Below, piece by piece: positions 9,949 through 19,844 of a stretch of 40,023 nt of DNA. The notes under the pieces are model-generated. The model made no database searches and had not been told where the DNA came from. It saw only the letters and a list, made by a program, of their open reading frames with translations. Every line of letters starts with the position of its first letter. Positions within the stretch are counted from its first letter, which is position 1. The stretch is from Flavobacteriales bacterium (lineage in GTDB: Bacteria; Bacteroidota; Bacteroidia; Flavobacteriales_C; GCA-002722245), in contig PBLA01000002.1 in NCBI GenBank assembly GCA_002722245.1, positions 80,651 through 120,673 of the forward strand, given 5' to 3'. Made by a program: the position numbers and the translations under genes.

Positions 9949-10740
9949 ATGCGTTATTTTTTTCATATTGCCTATGATGGCTCCAAATATTCTGGTTGGC
10001 AATGGCAGCCCAATTTTTTTTCTGTTCAAGAAGCGATAGAGCAGAAATTGGCTAAAATTTTCAAAGAAAAAGTGACTGTATATGGTTGTGGTAGAACAGA
10101 TAAGGGTGTGCATGCCGCTCAATATTTTTTTCATTTAACATTAAATTCGGTACCCGATTTTGAGATTGAATTTGTTGTTCGACAACATTTACCTAAATCT
10201 ATTGTCTTATTTGAGGTGTTTCAAGTAGACGAAACTCAGCACTGTCGATATGATGCGATAAGTAGAAGTTATGACTACTTTCTGCATACAAAAGCAGATC
10301 CTTTTTTAGATAAGTATAGTACGTTATTCAATTATGAGAAATTGAATGTTTCTGCAATGCAGCAAGCTGCTCAAATGATTTGTCGTTATCAAGATTTTAG
10401 AGGTTTCTGTTTACAGCCTGAATCACATAATCATACACGCTGCATGGTTTCCAACTCAAGATTGTATTCGGATAAAGAGCAACATCGGCTCCGGTTTTCA
10501 ATAACAGGGAATCGCTTTTTAAAAGGAATGAACAGGATTTTGATAGGTGCGTTACTTAAGATCGGAAGAGAACAATTAACTCTAACAGCTTTTGAGGAGT
10601 ACTTACGAAATCCAAAAGCGATGCCTAATATCAAAATAGCTCCACCAAATGGGCTGTATTTATCACGGGTAGAATATCCTACTATATGCAGAGAAAATAA
10701 ATCACAATTGTACTCTTTTTTAAAGAGTGATTTATCCTAA
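9949..10740 (+). CDS. truA: tRNA pseudouridine synthase A
   Basis: Forms pseudouridine at positions 38-40 in the anticodon stem-loop of many tRNAs. The 263-residue protein shows the N-terminal strand RYFFHIAYDGSKYSGWQWQP, the catalytic GCGRTDKGVHA with Asp51, and the conserved RYDAISRSYDYFL and FRGFC segments of the family. The ATG at 9949 lies 5 bp after the ruvB stop, so the two are translated from one message. A tRNA-Gln gene with its own promoter follows 67 bp downstream. Confidence 0.95.
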   Translation: MRYFFHIAYDGSKYSGWQWQPNFFSVQEAIEQKLAKIFKEKVTVYGCGRTDKGVHAAQYFFHLTLNSVPDFEIEFVVRQHLPKSIVLFEVFQVDETQHCRYDAISRSYDYFLHTKADPFLDKYSTLFNYEKLNVSAMQQAAQMICRYQDFRGFCLQPESHNHTRCMVSNSRLYSDKEQHRLRFSITGNRFLKGMNRILIGALLKIGREQLTLTAFEEYLRNPKAMPNIKIAPPNGLYLSRVEYPTICRENKSQLYSFLKSDLS

Positions 10741-10807: not shown

Positions 10808-10878
10808 TGCCCGATGGTGTAACGGTAGCACTACAGTTTTTGGTACTGTCTGTCGGGGTTCGAATCCCTGTCGGGTAA
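10808..10878 (+). tRNA. tRNA-Gln (anticodon TTG)
   Basis: A 71-nt cloverleaf. Acceptor TGCCCGA pairs with TCGGGTA (one G-T), D-arm GTG...CAC, anticodon stem ACAGT/ACTGT around the loop TTTTGGT giving anticodon TTG, variable loop CTGT, T-arm CGGGG-TTCGAAT-CCCTG, and discriminator A. The U1-A72 type first pair is also characteristic of tRNA-Gln. CCA is not encoded. It has its own promoter upstream and a terminator immediately downstream. The cognate synthetase glnS is at 33769. Confidence 0.95.
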
Positions 10879-10884
10879 CAAAAT

Positions 10885-10910
10885 AGCTCAACGAAAGTTG
10901 GGCTTTTTTT
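10885..10910 (+). terminator. terminator of tRNA-Gln
   Basis: AGCTCAAC, GAAA tetraloop, GTTGGGCT and then a run of T. Eight-pair stem with one G-T, seven bases after the tRNA 3' end. A textbook rho-independent terminator. Confidence 0.85.
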
Positions 10911-10911
10911 G

Positions 10912-11000
10912 TGTCCGAGAGGGATGAGAACAGAAAGGTTCGTACCGAGGCTCTAGCCGAGATCATGAGAGGTTTGTCTCGAATAATCCCTGTCGGGTAA
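10912..11000 (+). ncRNA. tRNA-Gln-derived structured element, possible small RNA or tRNA relic
   Basis: An 18-base identical copy of the tRNA 3' end plus flank (AATCCCTGTCGGGTAACA at 10863-10880) recurs at 10985-11002. It closes a new fold: 10912-10925 (TGTCCGAGAGGGAT) pairs with 10986-10999 in 13 of 14 positions, with two G-T pairs and one G-G mismatch, uniting what were the acceptor and T-arm 3' strands of the tRNA in a single long stem. Inside are smaller possible hairpins (GAAC/GTTC near 10928-10940, GGCT-CT-AGCC near 10949-10958, CGAGA/TCTCG near 10959-10981). It cannot form a normal cloverleaf and has no recognisable anticodon arm. Its own terminator follows. It may be a transcribed small RNA or the fossil of an integration or duplication at the tRNA gene. 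Confidence 0.4.
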
Positions 11001-11005
11001 CATTA

Positions 11006-11032
11006 AAGCCAGTCTTTTCGACTGGCTTTTTT
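11006..11032 (+). terminator. terminator after the tRNA-related element
   Basis: AAGCCAGTC, loop TTTTC, GACTGGCTT and further T: a perfect nine-pair stem with a T-tract. It stands at the same distance from the repeated tRNA 3' end as the first terminator does from the true tRNA, so the unit 'tRNA end plus terminator' appears duplicated with a different hairpin sequence. Confidence 0.8.
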
Positions 11033-11242
11033 GTTTCTCTATACGGGATATTTGGCTTCTCCAAAAGTCATTATGTATTAAACGTATCATACCTGATGTC
11101 CGAGAGGACATCCTCCTCTAAATATCATTTTTGTCGGGTTATAATCAGTAAAATGAAGTTTGGTTATTTATTTCAACGGGATCAGAATAAATACGCTGAT
11201 ACAATTTTTATAAAGCGACATAAATTAGTTTTTTAGTTCGGC
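11033..11242. other. gene-poor spacer with a second tRNA-related relic
   Basis: About 210 bp between the second terminator and the end of the giant surface-protein gene. At 11097-11107 it repeats TGTCCGAGAGG exactly as at 10912-10922, and at 11132-11141 it has TGTCGGGTTA, close to the tRNA 3' end. The first copy also lies in a perfect hairpin GATGTCC-GAGA-GGACATC (11095-11112). A 27-codon frame at 11153-11236 is not supported by anything else. No promoter or gene is recognised. Confidence 0.4.
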
Positions 11243-14200
11243 TTACCTTAACAGGTTGAAATGACCAACACGTTTTTTTTGTACCGTTCCTTCAAACTCC
11301 GAGTTGTAGTAATAAGTTAATGTATAGGAGTAAACATCAACCTGAGCTGAGTTTCCATTTATTTTTCCATCCCAGCCTTCTCCTTGTTTATTGGTGGAGT
11401 AGAGAAGTGTCCCCCATCGGTTGAATATTTTAAAATCAAATCCTTCTACTTGCTCATTGGCAACAGGCATAAATACATCGTTTATTCCATCTTGATTTTC
11501 TGGAGTAAAGGCATTTGGAATGTAAAATATACCTTTACAATGGTTATTGAGAGTTTTTTGAAGTCGTGAAGAACAATATTCATTGTAAACTGTTAAAGCA
11601 TAGGTCCCTGCTTCTTCGATTTCTACTTTGTCCCCCCTTCCAAAATCATCCCATACAGAAAGATAAAAAGAGTCTTTACTAATCACTTCCAGGGTAACAG
11701 TCTCTATATCAAAGCAATACAGATCTTGATTTCTCGCGTCTTGAATAATCGCTTCGGGGGTATCTAATTTAGTGACATTAATTTGGAAAGTTTCACTACA
11801 GTACTCTCCTTCCACAATACTTGAATATGTTCCTGTTTCATAAACTTCTAATGTTGGACTGAATAAGTCTTCTTCCCAATAAATAAGGTAGTCCCCATGA
11901 AAGTCTGGTTTAAGCGTGATTGATGTTCCTTCGCATACATGGAGTTCCTTTTCTGAGTAAGGATCTTGAATGACCTCTTTTAAAACATTAATTTCATCGG
12001 ATCCTTTACAACCAATACTATCTATTACTTCAACACGGTAGGTGCCGCTGTCATTAATTTCGATTTGTTGCGTGTTTAGTCCGTTGTTCCATTTGTAAAG
12101 GTGGTTATCATTTCCTGCATCAAGGACAATAGTTTCTTCCCCACAAATAATGCGCTGGTCCCCTAAATGAACATTTGGTAATTGATTGATGGATAGATTT
12201 AACGTTGAAGTGTCTGTACATCCAATTTCATCAAATACAATAACTTGATAATTCCCTGGATTGTCAACGTTTATTTTTTGTGATGTTTCGCCAGTATTCC
12301 ACTGAAAGTTTAATCCTTCATTTTGTGCATCAAGTAAAAGTGATTCTCCTTCGCAAATTATTCGATCGTCCCCAAGACTAACCGTAGGGATTGGTTTAAT
12401 TGTTAATACCACAGAGGAAGAATCCGAACATCCATGCTCATTGGTTACTATTACCTTATACTCTCCTGCTGTTTTTACATAAATCTCTTGTGTTGAGGCC
12501 TCTGTATTCCATAGGAAAGTTGCGCCTGTGTTTTGGGCGTTTAAAAGAAGGGAATCTCCTTGGCATATACTCTGTTCAGCACTAAGGGATAATTGGGGTC
12601 GGTCAACCACGGTTAAATGCAGTGATGCAGAATCCACACATCCATAATTATCGGAAACAACTACTTCGTATTGTCCATTTGAACTCACGTGAATTGTCTG
12701 ATCGGTTTTGCCATTGTTCCACTGGAAATTTAACCCTTTGTTTTGGGCATCTAAAGTCAGCGTATCACCCTGACATATTGTTTGATCATCACCAATATCT
12801 ACCACTGGAGGCTGGTTAACGGTTAATTGGGTCGTGGAGGTATCGGAGCAACCTAAATCGTCTGAGACAATTACTTGGTATTTACCGGACTGAGTTACTC
12901 TGATTTTTTGATTGGATTCGCCAGTATTCCACTGGAAATTTAATCCCTCATTTTGGGCGTCAAGTGTAAGTGAATCTCCCAAACAAATCGTTTGTGTTGG
13001 AGCTAAAATTACTTGTGGAAGCTCATTTACGTTTACGTTGATTTCGCCAGTATCTTGGCATCCTTGTTCACTAGTAACAATCACCTGATAGGAACCTGCT
13101 GAATCAACATCAATTTCTTGAATGGTTGCACCGGTATTCCATAGAAAATTAGCTTCACTATTCCACGCATTCAAAGAGAGCGTCTCTCCTTTGCAAATGG
13201 TTGTGTCTTTCCCTAAGTTAATGAGCGGTAAGTCGTTGACATCAATTTGAATAGTGTCCAAAGAAATACATCCATTTTCATGAGTGATCCGAACAGAATA
13301 CTCACCGGTTTCACTTATTGTTACCTCTGATGATATACTTCCATTACTCCAAAGATATTGTTCGTTATCTGGAAGTTTGAAGGTGATTTCTTCTCCTTTA
13401 CACATAGCAGTGTCATTGCCTAGCGTAATATCGTCATGAGATTGAACAATGACAATAACGCTATCAACCTGTTTTTTAAATGTATAAAATTCAACAGCGT
13501 CTATGAGGTTACCCATAGATCCACTCATAGCTGAGGAGTAATAAAATCTTGTGGTTGTTTGGCCCTCTGGAATTTTATAAATGCCTTGATAAAACTTCCA
13601 TGACTTACCTGTTGTAATGGTTTCAATTCTCTCGTAGGGTCCTCCTGGTGGACCAATTTCAAAATGCATGGACTCTTCCCCATTTCTACCTCTGTGTGCA
13701 AATCCCCACATTAATTGATCCCCAGGTGTAGTTGGCATATCTTGATACAGGGCTGCGATCATATTTGCATTTAACTCAACAAACTGATCCCCTAAATAAG
13801 CAGGGGTATTCAAGAAGCCATCATTCCAAAATTCCATCATTCGGTCTTCAGCTGTGGTGCTCCAACCTGGAACAGTAGCATCGCTGATAATTCCAAAAGC
13901 GTTTCTGTAAGGCTCTTCAAATCCACCGTTCACTAAAGCGTTTTCAATTTTAGTATATTGGGTAAGATAATAGGTTGTGTTTTTAGAGGGTGAGGCAGCA
14001 ATAGAGTCTTTGGATAAAATATCAAAGGGTTCAGATCCACTCCAATCTCCATTCGTTAAATTTTCCTTTTCTATAATGATCTTTTCGCCTTTGCAGATAT
14101 AAAGGGTATCTACTTTTGGAATGCATTCGGGAGTTAATTCCACGCGAACTGTCAACGTAGATGTGTCGTTTTTTACAGCACCTAAAATTGTTGTCGTTTG

Positions 14201-15808
14201 CATTATTACAGTAAAATTAAAAGGTCCTTCCCGCCCGCTTTGATCATAGTCAAACAAATAGGTAGAATCATTTATTTTGGTAATCATATCCTCATCACCT
14301 GTTAAGCTTTGCCATTGATAGGTGTCGGCCCCTTTGGCCACTAAAGAGACGGTGTCGCGTGTGCATGGAATTGTAAAATCAAGTGTGCCAAATTCTGAAA
14401 CACCTAAATCCGTATTTACCGCAGCAAAACCTGAGAAATAACCCGCTGCGCCAACAATTCCGTCCACAGTTGATATTGCTGCGTTAATAGGGCCTGAGGA
14501 TTCTATGAGGAAATTTGTGTTTTGGCCTTTATTTGCGCATGTATTTCCTGAATGGCAATAGCTAAGATTAATTTCCTCTGGTGAAATTCGATAAGTGACC
14601 CAATTTGGATTTCCCAAGTTTTCAATTGGTATGCTACTCACAGGAATACCATTTATGGTGAGTTCTTCATCTTTTTTGGCAATGATGTAAAAGGAAACAC
14701 TACCAATACTATTGGCGCCAGAAACAAGCACAGAGCGCGAAGCGTCTTCCATGAGTCCAGGAACAAATACCATCCCAACATTAGCAGAACTGTTTTTACT
14801 GGCTAAGTTTTGATAGACTAATGCAGGTTTTGATGTTTTAATATGCATTGTTTGATTAATGTATTGATCACCTTTAATCACGATATTTTCTCCCTTTTGT
14901 AAGGTGTGAGATGGAGTGATTTCTCCATTTAAAAAAACAAGCGTATTGTCCTCGCTTGCAATGATCATGGCGGTTTCTAGATTTCTATTCGTGGATTGTC
15001 CTTGGGCTAATATAAATTCTGTATTTAATTGGTTTACAGGTACGATTTGATCTACTCCTGCATCTTGTCCTCCTGATGATGAACTTGCTAGAAACGATCC
15101 TGAATTAACAGCTATAGGTCGATCGGAGGTGATGTGGGTTCCGTTAAATGCATTAAAAAGATCATCTCCAACTAATCCGCTTATGTAATTAAAAGAGGCA
15201 GCAAGTACGTATGATTCTCCGCGATTCAGTGCTACACTAAATTGGTAGTTCTCTTGTCCTTCCCATTTTACTCTCGGATTGTTAAATGTAACAGTGGTAT
15301 GGTCTTCTGAAGCAATAACAGACAGAAAATGAGCCCTTGAGTTATTTGTTCCACTGGCTGAATAAATGTGGCCGCTGTAAAATTCGGTTCCCAAACCCGC
15401 TATCCCTTTTGGTGCAATTACAGCAGCTTGATTGGCTACGGCATGGATTTGACTTGAAAAAAAATAATTGTCTGCGGTTAGAATGAATCCCTCAGAATTT
15501 AAAACTTGATTGGTTTTTCCTTCATCTCCTTTAAAAATACCATCGTTACCTCCTAAGGGAAGCGTAATAGTAATTGGATTTTCTTTTGACAACCCTTCCA
15601 AATTTCGAGTATAATTGCCTGATGCATTGGTTAAAAAAACATCGAAGGGCGATTCTTCCAAGGTTGTAACTGTAATGGTTGAAAATTCAATTCTAGATTG
15701 TTGGTTGTAGGTTGGAGGAAGATAATGCACTTTACTGTATTGTGCCATTGTTCCTAAATAAAGAAACAAGGCAATACTCAACACTCTGTATTTCAGTTCA
15801 AAAGGCAT
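11243..15808 (-). CDS. giant repeat-containing surface protein with type IX secretion C-terminal domain
   Basis: A 1521-residue exported protein from the ATG at 15808 (signal peptide LKYRVLSIALFLYLGTMAQ); the frame extends to a TTG at 15826 but the ATG gives the cleaner signal. Domains: an IgGFc-binding-protein-like N-terminal region (about 140-420, with GGQDAGVDQIVPVNQL); a possible jelly-roll/carbohydrate-binding module (about 625-775, starting VNGGFEEP); seven tandem 70-residue Ig-like repeats (about 795-1284) each with two Cys; two degenerate units; and a C-terminal gliding-motility-associated domain (YIPNAFTPENQDGINDVF, FKIFNRWGTLLY), the type B sorting signal for the type IX secretion system. 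An adhesin or matrix role is inferred. It stands alone, convergent with the tRNA region. Confidence 0.9.
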   Translation of the reverse strand: MPFELKYRVLSIALFLYLGTMAQYSKVHYLPPTYNQQSRIEFSTITVTTLEESPFDVFLTNASGNYTRNLEGLSKENPITITLPLGGNDGIFKGDEGKTNQVLNSEGFILTADNYFFSSQIHAVANQAAVIAPKGIAGLGTEFYSGHIYSASGTNNSRAHFLSVIASEDHTTVTFNNPRVKWEGQENYQFSVALNRGESYVLAASFNYISGLVGDDLFNAFNGTHITSDRPIAVNSGSFLASSSSGGQDAGVDQIVPVNQLNTEFILAQGQSTNRNLETAMIIASEDNTLVFLNGEITPSHTLQKGENIVIKGDQYINQTMHIKTSKPALVYQNLASKNSSANVGMVFVPGLMEDASRSVLVSGANSIGSVSFYIIAKKDEELTINGIPVSSIPIENLGNPNWVTYRISPEEINLSYCHSGNTCANKGQNTNFLIESSGPINAAISTVDGIVGAAGYFSGFAAVNTDLGVSEFGTLDFTIPCTRDTVSLVAKGADTYQWQSLTGDEDMITKINDSTYLFDYDQSGREGPFNFTVIMQTTTILGAVKNDTSTLTVRVELTPECIPKVDTLYICKGEKIIIEKENLTNGDWSGSEPFDILSKDSIAASPSKNTTYYLTQYTKIENALVNGGFEEPYRNAFGIISDATVPGWSTTAEDRMMEFWNDGFLNTPAYLGDQFVELNANMIAALYQDMPTTPGDQLMWGFAHRGRNGEESMHFEIGPPGGPYERIETITTGKSWKFYQGIYKIPEGQTTTRFYYSSAMSGSMGNLIDAVEFYTFKKQVDSVIVIVQSHDDITLGNDTAMCKGEEITFKLPDNEQYLWSNGSISSEVTISETGEYSVRITHENGCISLDTIQIDVNDLPLINLGKDTTICKGETLSLNAWNSEANFLWNTGATIQEIDVDSAGSYQVIVTSEQGCQDTGEINVNVNELPQVILAPTQTICLGDSLTLDAQNEGLNFQWNTGESNQKIRVTQSGKYQVIVSDDLGCSDTSTTQLTVNQPPVVDIGDDQTICQGDTLTLDAQNKGLNFQWNNGKTDQTIHVSSNGQYEVVVSDNYGCVDSASLHLTVVDRPQLSLSAEQSICQGDSLLLNAQNTGATFLWNTEASTQEIYVKTAGEYKVIVTNEHGCSDSSSVVLTIKPIPTVSLGDDRIICEGESLLLDAQNEGLNFQWNTGETSQKINVDNPGNYQVIVFDEIGCTDTSTLNLSINQLPNVHLGDQRIICGEETIVLDAGNDNHLYKWNNGLNTQQIEINDSGTYRVEVIDSIGCKGSDEINVLKEVIQDPYSEKELHVCEGTSITLKPDFHGDYLIYWEEDLFSPTLEVYETGTYSSIVEGEYCSETFQINVTKLDTPEAIIQDARNQDLYCFDIETVTLEVISKDSFYLSVWDDFGRGDKVEIEEAGTYALTVYNEYCSSRLQKTLNNHCKGIFYIPNAFTPENQDGINDVFMPVANEQVEGFDFKIFNRWGTLLYSTNKQGEGWDGKINGNSAQVDVYSYTLTYYYNSEFEGTVQKKRVGHFNLLR
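11960..13428 (-). repeat. seven tandem 210-bp coding repeats
   Basis: Seven head-to-tail units of exactly 70 codons inside the surface-protein gene. Consensus landmarks per unit: a 'LG.d.tIC.Gd.l.LdA' opening, 'f.WNtG' near residue 26-30, a 'G.Y.ViV' strand near 42-48, 'GC.D' near 53-56 and a linker 'LP.V'. The middle units are near-identical at DNA level over stretches such as GCCAGTATTCCACTG..AA, which points to recent duplication or gene conversion, while the outer units are more diverged. Two looser relatives flank the array toward the C-terminus. Confidence 0.88.
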
Positions 15809-16124
15809 CTCTTTAACATAACGCAAAAATATCCATTAGGTTCAGGTATTGATTCCATAAATAGCCGATTAAATATGGCGTTATTGTTTAGTGATTCGGG
15901 ATTAATGTATGTTTCGATAAAGAAAAATAGAGATGGAGTAAAAGAGAATGTTTTTAATATGCTGAATTTATAATGACTCATCCTTGAATATGTGAATTTT
16001 TTCCTTTCTTTTTTTTATTTTCGCTCGATTATTTTAATGGATTCCTCAAATAAACAAGGGTTAAATAAACTTAAGATCCGTTAAATGCATTTTGATTGTG
16101 ATGATCCGTAATTACTTTTAGAAA
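15809..16124. other. divergent intergenic region, little recognised
   Basis: About 316 bp between the divergent surface-protein and DUF2723 genes, so promoters for both must lie here. It is AT-rich with a long pyrimidine run near 16000-16020. The nearest consensus match is TATTTTCG at about 16016-16023, one mismatch from TAnnTTTG and without a good -33. GATCCGT occurs twice, 28 bp apart (16075 and 16103). A 62-codon minus-strand frame overlapping the surface gene start looks like chance. Confidence 0.3.
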
Positions 16125-19100
16125 ATGGAGAAGAAATATTCCTTTATAAATAATATAACTGGATGGTTGGTTTTAGTTTTTTCATCAGTTATATATATAC
16201 TCACTATTGAATCTTCTGCGAGTTTTTGGGATTGTGGAGAATTCATCGCTTCAGCAACAAAATTGCAAGTTGGACACCCCCCTGGAGCTCCTTTATGGAG
16301 TATGAAGGCAAGGATGTTTGCCGCTGCTGCTGAAATTTTTACAGGAAGTCAAGAGAACATAGCGTATGCGGTGAATATCATGTCTGCATTAAGTTCTTCG
16401 TTTACAATTCTATTTCTTTTTTGGAGCATTACAGCGTTGGCAAAAAAAGTATCTAAAAAAACAGATGATTTAACCAGTGCCCATACTTGGGGTATAATGT
16501 TTAGTGGAATTGTAGGAGCATTGGCATTTACTTTTTCTGATTCTTTTTGGTTTTCAGCTGTGGAGGCCGAAGTTTATGCCTCTTCTTCTTTATATACAGC
16601 AGCTGTGTTTTGGTTAGCATTGAAATGGGATGCCAATGCGCATAAACCATATGCTGATCGATACTTGATACTCATCGCCTATTTGATGGGGCTGTCTATT
16701 GGCGTGCATATCTTGAATTTACTTGTTATTCCTGCTATTGTATACATTTATTACTTCAATAAAAAGAAGGCCACTACCAAAGGATTTTTTCTTACAGGTA
16801 TAGTGGGTGTCATTATTTTGGGGATTGTTCAACAAGTGGTGATTTCATATTCTGTTCAATTTGCCACCAAGTTTGAATTGTTTTTTGTCAATGAGCTAGG
16901 GCTGGGATTTGATTCGGGTATGTGGTTTTATTTTCTTTTGATTGCAACCGCTTTAATTGGAGGAATTGTGTTGTCTAAAAAGAAGGGGTATCCTGATTTA
17001 CAAAAAGCTTTTTTAGGCGTTATGGTTATTCTTATTGGATATTCTTCCTTTGCTATGATCGTAATTCGATCGGCGGCCAATCCCCCAATGGATGAGAATA
17101 ATCCAGAAAATATTTTATCGCTTTTACCTTATCTGAATCGAGAACAATATGGAGATCGACCGTTGTTGTTTGGACAAACATTTGAAAGTGTACAAGATGC
17201 TGGAAGCCCATATTCTGACGGATCGCCAGTGTATTATCGACCAGAAAAAACCAAGTATGGGTATATGTCCAAGGTAAAGGCAAAGAAAAGAGGGGAGAAT
17301 TGGGTTGTTTCAAAAGTAGATCAGAGGTTTAAAAATATTAAAGTAGGAGATAAAATTCTAAAAATTAATGGTGAGACTCCTCTTCCTCAACGAAAAGCGG
17401 AAGAGCTCGATTTGGTTGAACTAGGAGCTTTTGTAGATGAAACTGTTTTAAATGTAACGTATGATCGAAGAGGAGAAAAATCAACTAAAGAAATAAAAAC
17501 AGGGGTTTACCTTGTGGCTGATGAACGTAAAAATCATAAGCCAAAATATAATGAAAAGACATGTATGTATTTTCCAAGAATGTACAGTACTCAAGGACAT
17601 CATGTGAATGCCTATAAAATTTGGTCAGATTATGATGGAGCACCGGTTGAAGATAGCAGAGGGAAAGTGTTAACGGTGAAGGAGCCAACGGCTAGAGGAG
17701 TGAAAAAAGTTCCACTTGTTGTCCCGTCTCAATCAGAAAACTTTCGGTTTTTTGTGGATTACCAATTTAACTTCATGTACTGGCGTTATTTTATGTGGAA
17801 TTTTACTGGAAGGCAAAACGATATTCAGGGCCATGGAAAAGCGCGAAGTAGTGATGCTGTCTTAAAAGGAAATTGGTTAAGCGGAATTTCTTTTGTGGAT
17901 AATGCTCATCTCGGTGATCAAGAAACTCTACCGTCATCACTCAAAGATAATCCAGGAAGAAATGAGTTTTATTTCTTGCCTTTAATCCTAGGAATCATTG
18001 GAATGATTTTTCATTTTGTTCGCCATCGGGAAGATGCTTGGGTGGTTCTTTTATTGTTTTTAATGACGGGAATAGCCATTATTATTTATTTAAATCAAAC
18101 ACCTTTTCAACCGCGAGAGCGTGATTATGCATATGCCGGTTCCTTTTATGCATTTGCCATTTGGATAGGGCTTGGTGTTCAAGCAATTTATAGCTACATG
18201 CTTGGTCAACAAAAAAAGGACGTACCCGTTTTGGATCAGTCCGATGCAGAGGGGGGTGAGCAAGAGGAAAATTCGGGAATTGCTTTTCTCTTTAAGAAGT
18301 CAGTAATGAAAGCTCATGGGGTTTATGAAATTTTATCTGCTGCGTTAGGATTTATTGTGATTGGTGTTTTATCAACACAAGTTTCAGATGCATCGGCAAC
18401 CTTTGGATTGTCCTGTTTTTATATTGGCGGTGTTATAGGGGGATATGTGATTCTTTCGGCGTTATTAGGAAAGATGTTCTCAAGTAACAAAGCAAGAGCA
18501 TGCTTAGCGTTTTTACTTACAGGATTTATACCTGTAATTATGGCTGTTGAAGGTTGGGATGATCACGATAGAAGTGATAAATACACCGCTAGAGACTTTG
18601 CGAAAAACTACCTTGATAGTTGTGAGAAAAATGCCATTATTTTCACCAACGGAGATAATGATACGTTCCCATTGTGGTATGTGCAGGAAGTTGAAGGTTA
18701 CCGAACAGATGTACGTGTAATTAACCTGAGTTTGTTGAACACCGATTGGTACATTGATCAGGCAAAAAGAAAGGCTTATGACGGAGATGCGGTTCCTTTT
18801 TCAATGGTACAAGATCAATATCGTCAGGGTACAAGGGATTATGTATATGTTCAAGAGAAATGGCCTGATGGATATCATGATTTAAAGAAAGTAATGGATT
18901 TTGTCAAATCTGAGGCATCGAATACAAAAATACCAATGTCTTCAGGAGTGACGATGGATTATCTACCTACCAATAAATTCTCGATTCCTGTAAATCCTTC
19001 CACGGTATTGGCAAATGGAACCGTTTTACCAGAGTTTACAAATGATATCCCAGAAAGAATGGAATGGAAAATTGGGAAGGGAGCCGTATTAAAAGCTAAA

Positions 19101-19844
19101 TTAATGATACTTGATTTGTTAGCGCATAATGATTGGGAACGACCTGTTTATTTTGCCATTACAGTGGGGAATGATCATTACATGAATTTAGAGGATTATT
19201 TTCAATTGGAGGGATTAGCTTATCGTGTAACGCCGATAAAGCATGATAACAAAGGTGGAACAGGATGGATTAATGTTGATAAGATGTATGACAACCTTGT
19301 AAATAAATTCCAATGGGGAAATATGGAAAAAGAGGGGGTGTATATGGGAGAGCAAGTGCAAAGAATGAGTACCAATTATCGAAATAATTTTGCGCGACTA
19401 GCACGAGAACTCACGCAAAGGGGTGATACAATAAGAGCGCTTAAAACCTTGGATCGTTGCATGGAAATAATGCCACCATCAAAAATCCCAATGCATTACT
19501 ACAGCGTTTATTTGGGTGACGCCTATTATCTTGCAGGAGATGTGCGCAGAGGGAATGAGGTCATGGAAATTATTATTGAGAAATATATTTCAGAAATTTC
19601 TTGGTATTTAGAGCAGGAAGGTCTTGTGGCAAGAAATTTGACGGGTGAGGTTAAAAAAGGATTGCAAGCAATACAAACTGCAGAGTATTTCTTGGATAAA
19701 AATTTAGAGCTATTAAGAATGCGTGGTGATGAGGGGTTAAAGAAAGCAGAGGAGTTATCAAAACGAATGAAAGACTTTAATAAAGAAAGTCAAAGCGATA
19801 TTCAACGATTTATGAATAAGGCGCAAAGAGGTTCGAAGCGATAA
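16125..19844 (+). CDS. DUF2723 polytopic membrane protein (glycosyltransferase-like) with a PDZ-like insertion
   Basis: A 1239-residue inner-membrane protein of the DUF2723 family, distantly like protein O-mannosyltransferases and animal TMEM260. The N-terminus has the family motif SSASFWDCGEFIASATKLQVGHPPGAPLW cut here as FWDCGEFIAS and GHPPGAP (about 30-60), followed by many TM helices to about residue 325. A second helix group lies near 615-820, and a soluble C-terminal half starts with the conserved FTNGDNDTFPLWYVQEVEG and ends in TPR-like helices. Unusually, residues about 380-460 look like a PDZ domain (KVGDKILKING then GAFVDETVLNVTYDRRGE) placed between the extracellular start and the KTCMYFPRMYS motif. 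A role in glycosylation of exported proteins is inferred from the family. The polysaccharide deacetylase follows 14 bp downstream. Confidence 0.87.
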   Translation: MEKKYSFINNITGWLVLVFSSVIYILTIESSASFWDCGEFIASATKLQVGHPPGAPLWSMKARMFAAAAEIFTGSQENIAYAVNIMSALSSSFTILFLFWSITALAKKVSKKTDDLTSAHTWGIMFSGIVGALAFTFSDSFWFSAVEAEVYASSSLYTAAVFWLALKWDANAHKPYADRYLILIAYLMGLSIGVHILNLLVIPAIVYIYYFNKKKATTKGFFLTGIVGVIILGIVQQVVISYSVQFATKFELFFVNELGLGFDSGMWFYFLLIATALIGGIVLSKKKGYPDLQKAFLGVMVILIGYSSFAMIVIRSAANPPMDENNPENILSLLPYLNREQYGDRPLLFGQTFESVQDAGSPYSDGSPVYYRPEKTKYGYMSKVKAKKRGENWVVSKVDQRFKNIKVGDKILKINGETPLPQRKAEELDLVELGAFVDETVLNVTYDRRGEKSTKEIKTGVYLVADERKNHKPKYNEKTCMYFPRMYSTQGHHVNAYKIWSDYDGAPVEDSRGKVLTVKEPTARGVKKVPLVVPSQSENFRFFVDYQFNFMYWRYFMWNFTGRQNDIQGHGKARSSDAVLKGNWLSGISFVDNAHLGDQETLPSSLKDNPGRNEFYFLPLILGIIGMIFHFVRHREDAWVVLLLFLMTGIAIIIYLNQTPFQPRERDYAYAGSFYAFAIWIGLGVQAIYSYMLGQQKKDVPVLDQSDAEGGEQEENSGIAFLFKKSVMKAHGVYEILSAALGFIVIGVLSTQVSDASATFGLSCFYIGGVIGGYVILSALLGKMFSSNKARACLAFLLTGFIPVIMAVEGWDDHDRSDKYTARDFAKNYLDSCEKNAIIFTNGDNDTFPLWYVQEVEGYRTDVRVINLSLLNTDWYIDQAKRKAYDGDAVPFSMVQDQYRQGTRDYVYVQEKWPDGYHDLKKVMDFVKSEASNTKIPMSSGVTMDYLPTNKFSIPVNPSTVLANGTVLPEFTNDIPERMEWKIGKGAVLKAKLMILDLLAHNDWERPVYFAITVGNDHYMNLEDYFQLEGLAYRVTPIKHDNKGGTGWINVDKMYDNLVNKFQWGNMEKEGVYMGEQVQRMSTNYRNNFARLARELTQRGDTIRALKTLDRCMEIMPPSKIPMHYYSVYLGDAYYLAGDVRRGNEVMEIIIEKYISEISWYLEQEGLVARNLTGEVKKGLQAIQTAEYFLDKNLELLRMRGDEGLKKAEELSKRMKDFNKESQSDIQRFMNKAQRGSKR

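Follow-up and report, generated by a model that had tools for sequence, protein, structure and literature searches.

The window, which is the whole stretch of 40,023 nucleotides analyzed here, contains one tRNA according to both ARAGORN and Rfam, a tRNA-Gln(TTG) gene at 10808 to 10879 that is called by ARAGORN and RF00005 and lies, like all the features described with it, on the plus strand. An 18-nt stretch at its 3′ end (10863 to 10880), comprising the end of the T-loop, the 3′ strands of the T-stem and acceptor stem, and some flank, recurs exactly at 10985 to 11002, at a spacing of 122. A terminator scan placed one intrinsic terminator, followed by a T run, at 10885 to 10904 and a second at 11005 to 11029. 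Between the two terminators, starting 33 nt after tRNA-Gln, lies an element of 91 nt (10912 to 11002) that ends in the second copy of the tRNA 3′ end. No open reading frame of note was found within the 104 bp between the 18-bp repeats, and no separate promoter was recognized in a scan that does not cover Bacteroidota promoters. The first-pass annotation had already reported the exact recurrence of the tRNA-Gln 3′ end, which was borne out, and had described each copy as followed at the same distance by its own terminator; both terminators were found, but the distances (4 and 2 nt) agree only approximately.

The element is closed by a stem, P1, in which the 5′ strand at 10912 to 10925 faces 10986 to 10999 in the second tRNA copy. 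Thirteen of the 14 positions pair (11 Watson-Crick and 2 G-U), as had been noted in the first pass. With the 3′ arm held fixed, this degree of pairing was reached by dinucleotide-shuffled upstream DNA in 9 of 5000 trials and in 9 of 1978 real background windows, i.e., in ~0.2 to 0.5% of shuffles or background windows. Within P1 begins the core motif GATGAGAAC (10923 to 10931), which is common to the Ser, Arg, and E. coli Tyr/Ser units introduced below and appears as GACGAGAAC in Leu units. It overlaps a hairpin, P2 (10928 to 10941; GAAC/GUUC with the loop AGAAAG), which is present in every context and keeps a GAA/UUC base (one G-U) while its length varies. A further core motif, GGTTCGTACCGAG (GGTTCGnnnCGAG), spans 10937 to 10949. 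The variable inner arm P3 (10946 to 10981) pairs 10946-10951 with 10976-10981 and encloses 10955-10958 paired with 10971-10974 in the minimum free energy structures predicted for the window and for the sister genome G003; in the comparison of the two, U10977C converts a G-U pair in P3 to G-C. The last core motif, CGAATAATCC (10980 to 10989), runs into the tRNA copy, corresponds to the RtT consensus CGAgUaAUCC, and is identical in the Ser unit of the sister genome G002. Taken alone, a 93-nt element from the window folds modestly better than shuffles (z = −2.0) and its counterpart in a sister genome clearly better (z = −4.1); the comparative evidence presented below is stronger than this single-sequence folding evidence. 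The first reading of the locus as a refolded copy of the tRNA's own 3′ end holds for the 3′ arm but not for the rest of the element, which has no forward similarity to the tRNA.

In a permissive Rfam search, the window copy aligned to RtT RNA (RF00391) at 15.5 bits, below the gathering cutoff of 45. This sub-threshold alignment covers the RtT core and agrees at the positions conserved in RtT, namely GGAUGAGAAC, AAGGUUCG, and CGA(A/G)UAAUCC, and the shared core can be written as GAUGAGAA-hairpin-GGUUCG-nnn-CGAG ... GA(A/G)nAAUCC. The window element carries the core GGAUGAGAA, the P2 hairpin, GGUUCG, and GA(A/G)UAAUCC. It lies directly downstream of a tRNA gene, as do the Ser, Leu, and Arg units. 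Its last nucleotides repeat the 3′ end of that tRNA (18 nt and exact here, 17 to 46 nt elsewhere), and this copy pairs with a 5′ strand specific to the tRNA across contexts. Because 15.5 bits falls short of the cutoff of 45, which the best relatives (28.4 bits for Ser and 29.7 bits for Arg) also miss, we file the element as a divergent RtT-like variant rather than as a curated family member. No earlier report of RtT in Bacteroidota was found in the literature searched, the coverage of which was not full.

Running RF00391 over ten genomes of the family yielded further sub-threshold units. One lies behind tRNA-Ser(GCT) in G002 (28.4 bits). The genome of the window (G000) has a tandem pair behind tRNA-Leu(GAG), and G003 has a single unit behind its tRNA-Leu(GAG); the G002 Ser unit and the Leu units each close with the 3′ end of the preceding tRNA, copied exactly or with slight decay. 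A model built from Gln and Ser units recovered another behind tRNA-Ser(GCT) in G000, where the 3′ copy has been lost, and Gln-type units also occur in sister genomes. A strict core pattern, applied to 395 genomes of the phylum, matched three times, at the window element and at two tandem tRNA-Arg(CCG) units in G537, a genome of another class, the second of which has lost its 3′ copy; most of the Bacteroidota sampled with this pattern do not have the element. Apart from tRNA-derived matches, the best Rfam matches of the Arg and Ser units were to RtT, at 29.7 and 28.4 bits, respectively. As a control, E. coli returned three RtT units behind tyrV and two behind serX, all above the RF00391 cutoff, and the order at serX (tRNA, intrinsic terminator, RtT, tRNA 3′ copy, terminator) is identical to that in the window. 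Apart from coincidences, searches of phages, plasmids, and IMG/VR returned nothing but E. coli-like RtT (L135) and a single viral contig with an RtT-like core (L131). The viral-contig core (IMGVR_UViG_3300040801_006101, minus strand, 10190 to 10215) directly follows an intrinsic terminator, with no tRNA or matching 3′ copy near it. Separately, RF04351 (Plastid-psbl-rps4) gave sub-threshold matches antisense to tRNA-Ser at L112 (1400 to 1453), L128 (1380 to 1433), and L115 (2715 to 2764), which suggests that this model contains an antisense tRNA.

The 5′ strand of P1 in each unit is matched to the 3′ end of its own host tRNA. Since MAFFT put the P2 hairpin in the wrong place once Leu or E. coli units were added to the alignment, an alignment-free pairing test was chosen, in which 5′ strands were reassigned among tRNA 3′ copies. 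Across eight contexts, only 16 of 40,320 reassignments paired as well as the true assignment; the corresponding counts were 2 of 720 permutations for six contexts, 1 of 120 for five, and 2 of 120 for the Bacteroidota contexts alone. Between Gln and Ser units there are four compensatory pairs in which both sides have changed. The signal arises only across tRNA contexts, with no covariation signal among Gln-type units alone. A published covariation analysis of RtT itself reports an added helix framing a tandem GA (PMC8250186). The first-pass annotation had read the structure as selected, and had suggested a tRNA-derived small RNA, an element for processing or regulation, or a repeat associated with tRNAs, without the specific, RtT-like (RF00391) identity. 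This proposal is supported, a regulatory role being a possibility: homologs occur downstream of Gln, Leu, Ser, and Arg tRNA genes, and P1 varies together with the host tRNA, the two comparisons it had suggested. Neither blastn nor a covariance model of Gln units alone turned up anything beyond the genus except chance matches in coding DNA. Searches with RF00391 and with the Gln-plus-Ser model reached units behind other tRNAs. Altogether, and taking this identity jointly with the read-through and release proposed below, we consider it very likely that the tRNA-Gln transcription unit carries in its 3′ trailer, at 10912 to 11002, a divergent RNA element of the RtT-like kind. The element is not a tRNA relic, and it is more than an integration scar.

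The history of the locus can be followed in sister genomes. Compared with G003, the window has an identical tRNA and an element with 4 changes in 93 sites (96% identity). In the same pair, 74 of 117 four-fold degenerate positions in ruvB and 198 of 308 in the TMEM260-like gene are different (63 to 64%); the four-fold sites are saturated. All four changes keep the predicted fold, which random four-change mutants do in 3.5% of cases, and both differences in the first terminator fall in its loop. The adjoining spacer has 10 differences in 72 positions and a gap, and the element differs less than this spacer (P = 0.046). Since the flanking spacer is itself fairly conserved, the window genome and G003 may owe their similarity here to having recently exchanged the entire block. 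An extra unit in G003 (Gln unit 3) has decayed, with 75% identity and its fold lost; a candidate remnant of it in the window at 11131 to 11205 is weak once the core is taken out (matched by ~1 to 2% of shuffles), and we do not claim it. In G001, there is no insertion, and tRNA-Gln is followed directly by a terminator homologous to the second one in the window. For this reason, the second terminator is probably the ancestral terminator of tRNA-Gln, the first having presumably arrived with the insert. G002 retains the 3′ half of the element next to a broken copy of tRNA-Gln, to which it is joined; the element therefore probably arose before G002, G003, and the window genome diverged. The element is dispensable, because most of the Bacteroidota sampled do not have it, G002 has it only in broken form, and in G001 and G004 it is missing after tRNA-Gln.

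The neighborhood of tRNA-Gln is rearranged in the window genome. In sister genomes, tRNA-Gln sits between the TMEM260-like gene (16125 to 19844 in the window) and an RNase E/G gene. In the window genome, the upstream gene is truA in place of the RNase E/G gene, and only there does a 1527-codon open reading frame on the minus strand (11243 to 15826) separate the element from the TMEM260-like gene. A short intergenic module at 11089 to 11130, consisting of a variable hairpin followed by CCTCCTCTAAATATCATTT, is conserved beside the element in G003; in G000, it also occurs outside tRNA loci, at C29:174389, C20:35, C20:6391, C4:1801, C4:1960, and C4:4751.

By analogy with E. coli, the function of the element is probably that of a small RNA released from a read-through tRNA transcript. 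Under this proposal, polymerase starting at the tRNA-Gln promoter would sometimes pass the first terminator, and the resulting tRNA-RtT transcript would end at the second. The closing stem would imitate the stacked acceptor/T-arm helix of a tRNA, and because of this likeness, the nucleases of tRNA maturation could cut at the stem and free a stable RNA of ~90 nt, as is reported for E. coli rtT. Bosl and Kersten are said to have reported the E. coli rtT RNA in 1991, and it is reportedly released as a stable RNA; in the literature consulted, its role is only putative. The freed RNA would probably act under amino acid limitation, and tandem copies would probably arise by recombination between the repeated 3′ ends.

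It is possible, although we think it the less probable case, that the element is a selfish or neutral repeat of tRNA tails that spreads by recombination at repeated 3′ ends and serves no function in the cell, which would be compatible with an RtT-like identity. Tandem copies at several loci would fit such a repeat, as would its patchy presence and the decayed copies seen at the G000 Ser unit, Gln unit 3 of G003, and the G002 Gln locus. Against it stand the 96% retention and unchanged fold between the window and G003, as well as the reported expression of RtT RNAs in E. coli and in Pasteurellaceae, where those near tRNA-Asn and tRNA-Lys are visible on Northern blots (PMC4986893).

An integration scar is improbable. 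Here the tRNA-Gln 3′ end would be the att site of a tyrosine recombinase, the 18-bp repeats would be attL and attR, the 104 bp between them would be a remnant, and the stem would be incidental. Direct repeats of the tRNA 3′ end do stand at both ends of the insert, as in the att scars of tRNA-targeting elements, and repeats of 17 to 20 bp are typical of islands, such as those recognizable by repeats of the final 20 bp of tRNA-Lys (PMC10872708). The same tRNA-Gln is also so used in sister genomes, where a recombinase gene is intact in G004 and fragmentary in G002 and extra or broken tRNA-Gln copies are present. Unlike such scars, the window element has no recombinase or cargo between its repeats, and no recombinase relative was found in G000 at an E value of 1e−15. 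Scar remnants would also be expected to decay, whereas the element has been kept, and its 5′ strand follows the host tRNA. What overrides the scar as a full account, despite the integrases in sister genomes, is the RNA-like, non-tRNA core, which is conserved, its parts in unchanged order, in E. coli as well as downstream of Leu, Ser, and Arg tRNAs. The targeting of tRNA-Gln by tyrosine recombinase elements is seen at L096 (G004:C117; 558 to 3381), L097 (G004:C126; 3165 to 3236), and L095 (G002:C16; 8283 to 9400). The elements appear to bring along an entire tRNA-Gln gene and the promoter region that goes with it, so that as many as three tRNA-Gln copies are present, of which some are mutated. 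That the element is a degenerate tandem duplicate of tRNA-Gln whose body drifted into a hairpin is highly implausible even with mutated or broken tRNA-Gln copies at the locus in G002 and G004, since the same core behind other tRNAs already refutes it as a full account and the element, its 3′ copy aside, does not resemble the tRNA body in forward orientation (score of 14 versus 16.3 ± 3.4 for shuffles), including at 10912 to 10918, which was considered as a retained acceptor 5′ strand and rejected.

The units behind Gln, Leu, Ser, and Arg tRNAs in Bacteroidota are distant relatives of E. coli rtT that pare RtT down to a core of ~80 to 90 nt, with a closing stem that follows the host tRNA, and the question of RtT function becomes testable in a second phylum. 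For annotators, the locus is a warning that not every repeated tRNA 3′ end marks the scar of an integration. A broader speculation, which we offer with some reserve, is that RtT-like RNAs form a family in at least two phyla, behind many tRNAs, in which both P1 strands are tRNA specific and the 3′ end of each host tRNA is re-adopted. Such re-adoption would imply either templated movement between tRNA trailers or a function that imitates the acceptor/T-arm helix of a given tRNA, for example, in sensing or titrating its maturation.

Among known systems, 3′ETS-leuZ of E. coli, an annotated small regulatory RNA which we take to act as a sponge, likewise derives from the 3′ trailer of a tRNA transcript, but leuZ has no copy of its 3′ end and no RtT core downstream. 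Also in E. coli K-12, the argV-argY and argZ-argQ spacers (L157) end in a copy of the tRNA-Arg 3′ end preceded by its complement (GGGAGGAT...ATCCTCCC). The argQZYV spacers have no GAUGAGAA core and score below the RF00391 cutoff; the argV-argY and argZ-argQ spacers are possibly reduced RtT units. RtT RNA itself, known in E. coli as rttR behind tyrV/tyrT and present also at serX, differs from the window element in having a longer inner arm (a 130-position model versus 91 nt) and in its association with tRNA-Tyr or tRNA-Ser rather than tRNA-Gln, its occurrence in Gammaproteobacteria rather than Bacteroidota, and the 45 bits of its cutoff versus the 15.5 bits reached here. It resembles the window element in its position behind a tRNA, its terminal copy of the tRNA 3′ end, its P1 formed from a 5′ strand and that copy, its tandem units, its core of GAUGAGAA, hairpin, GGUUCG, and GA(A/G)nAAUCC, and, at serX, a terminator on both sides.
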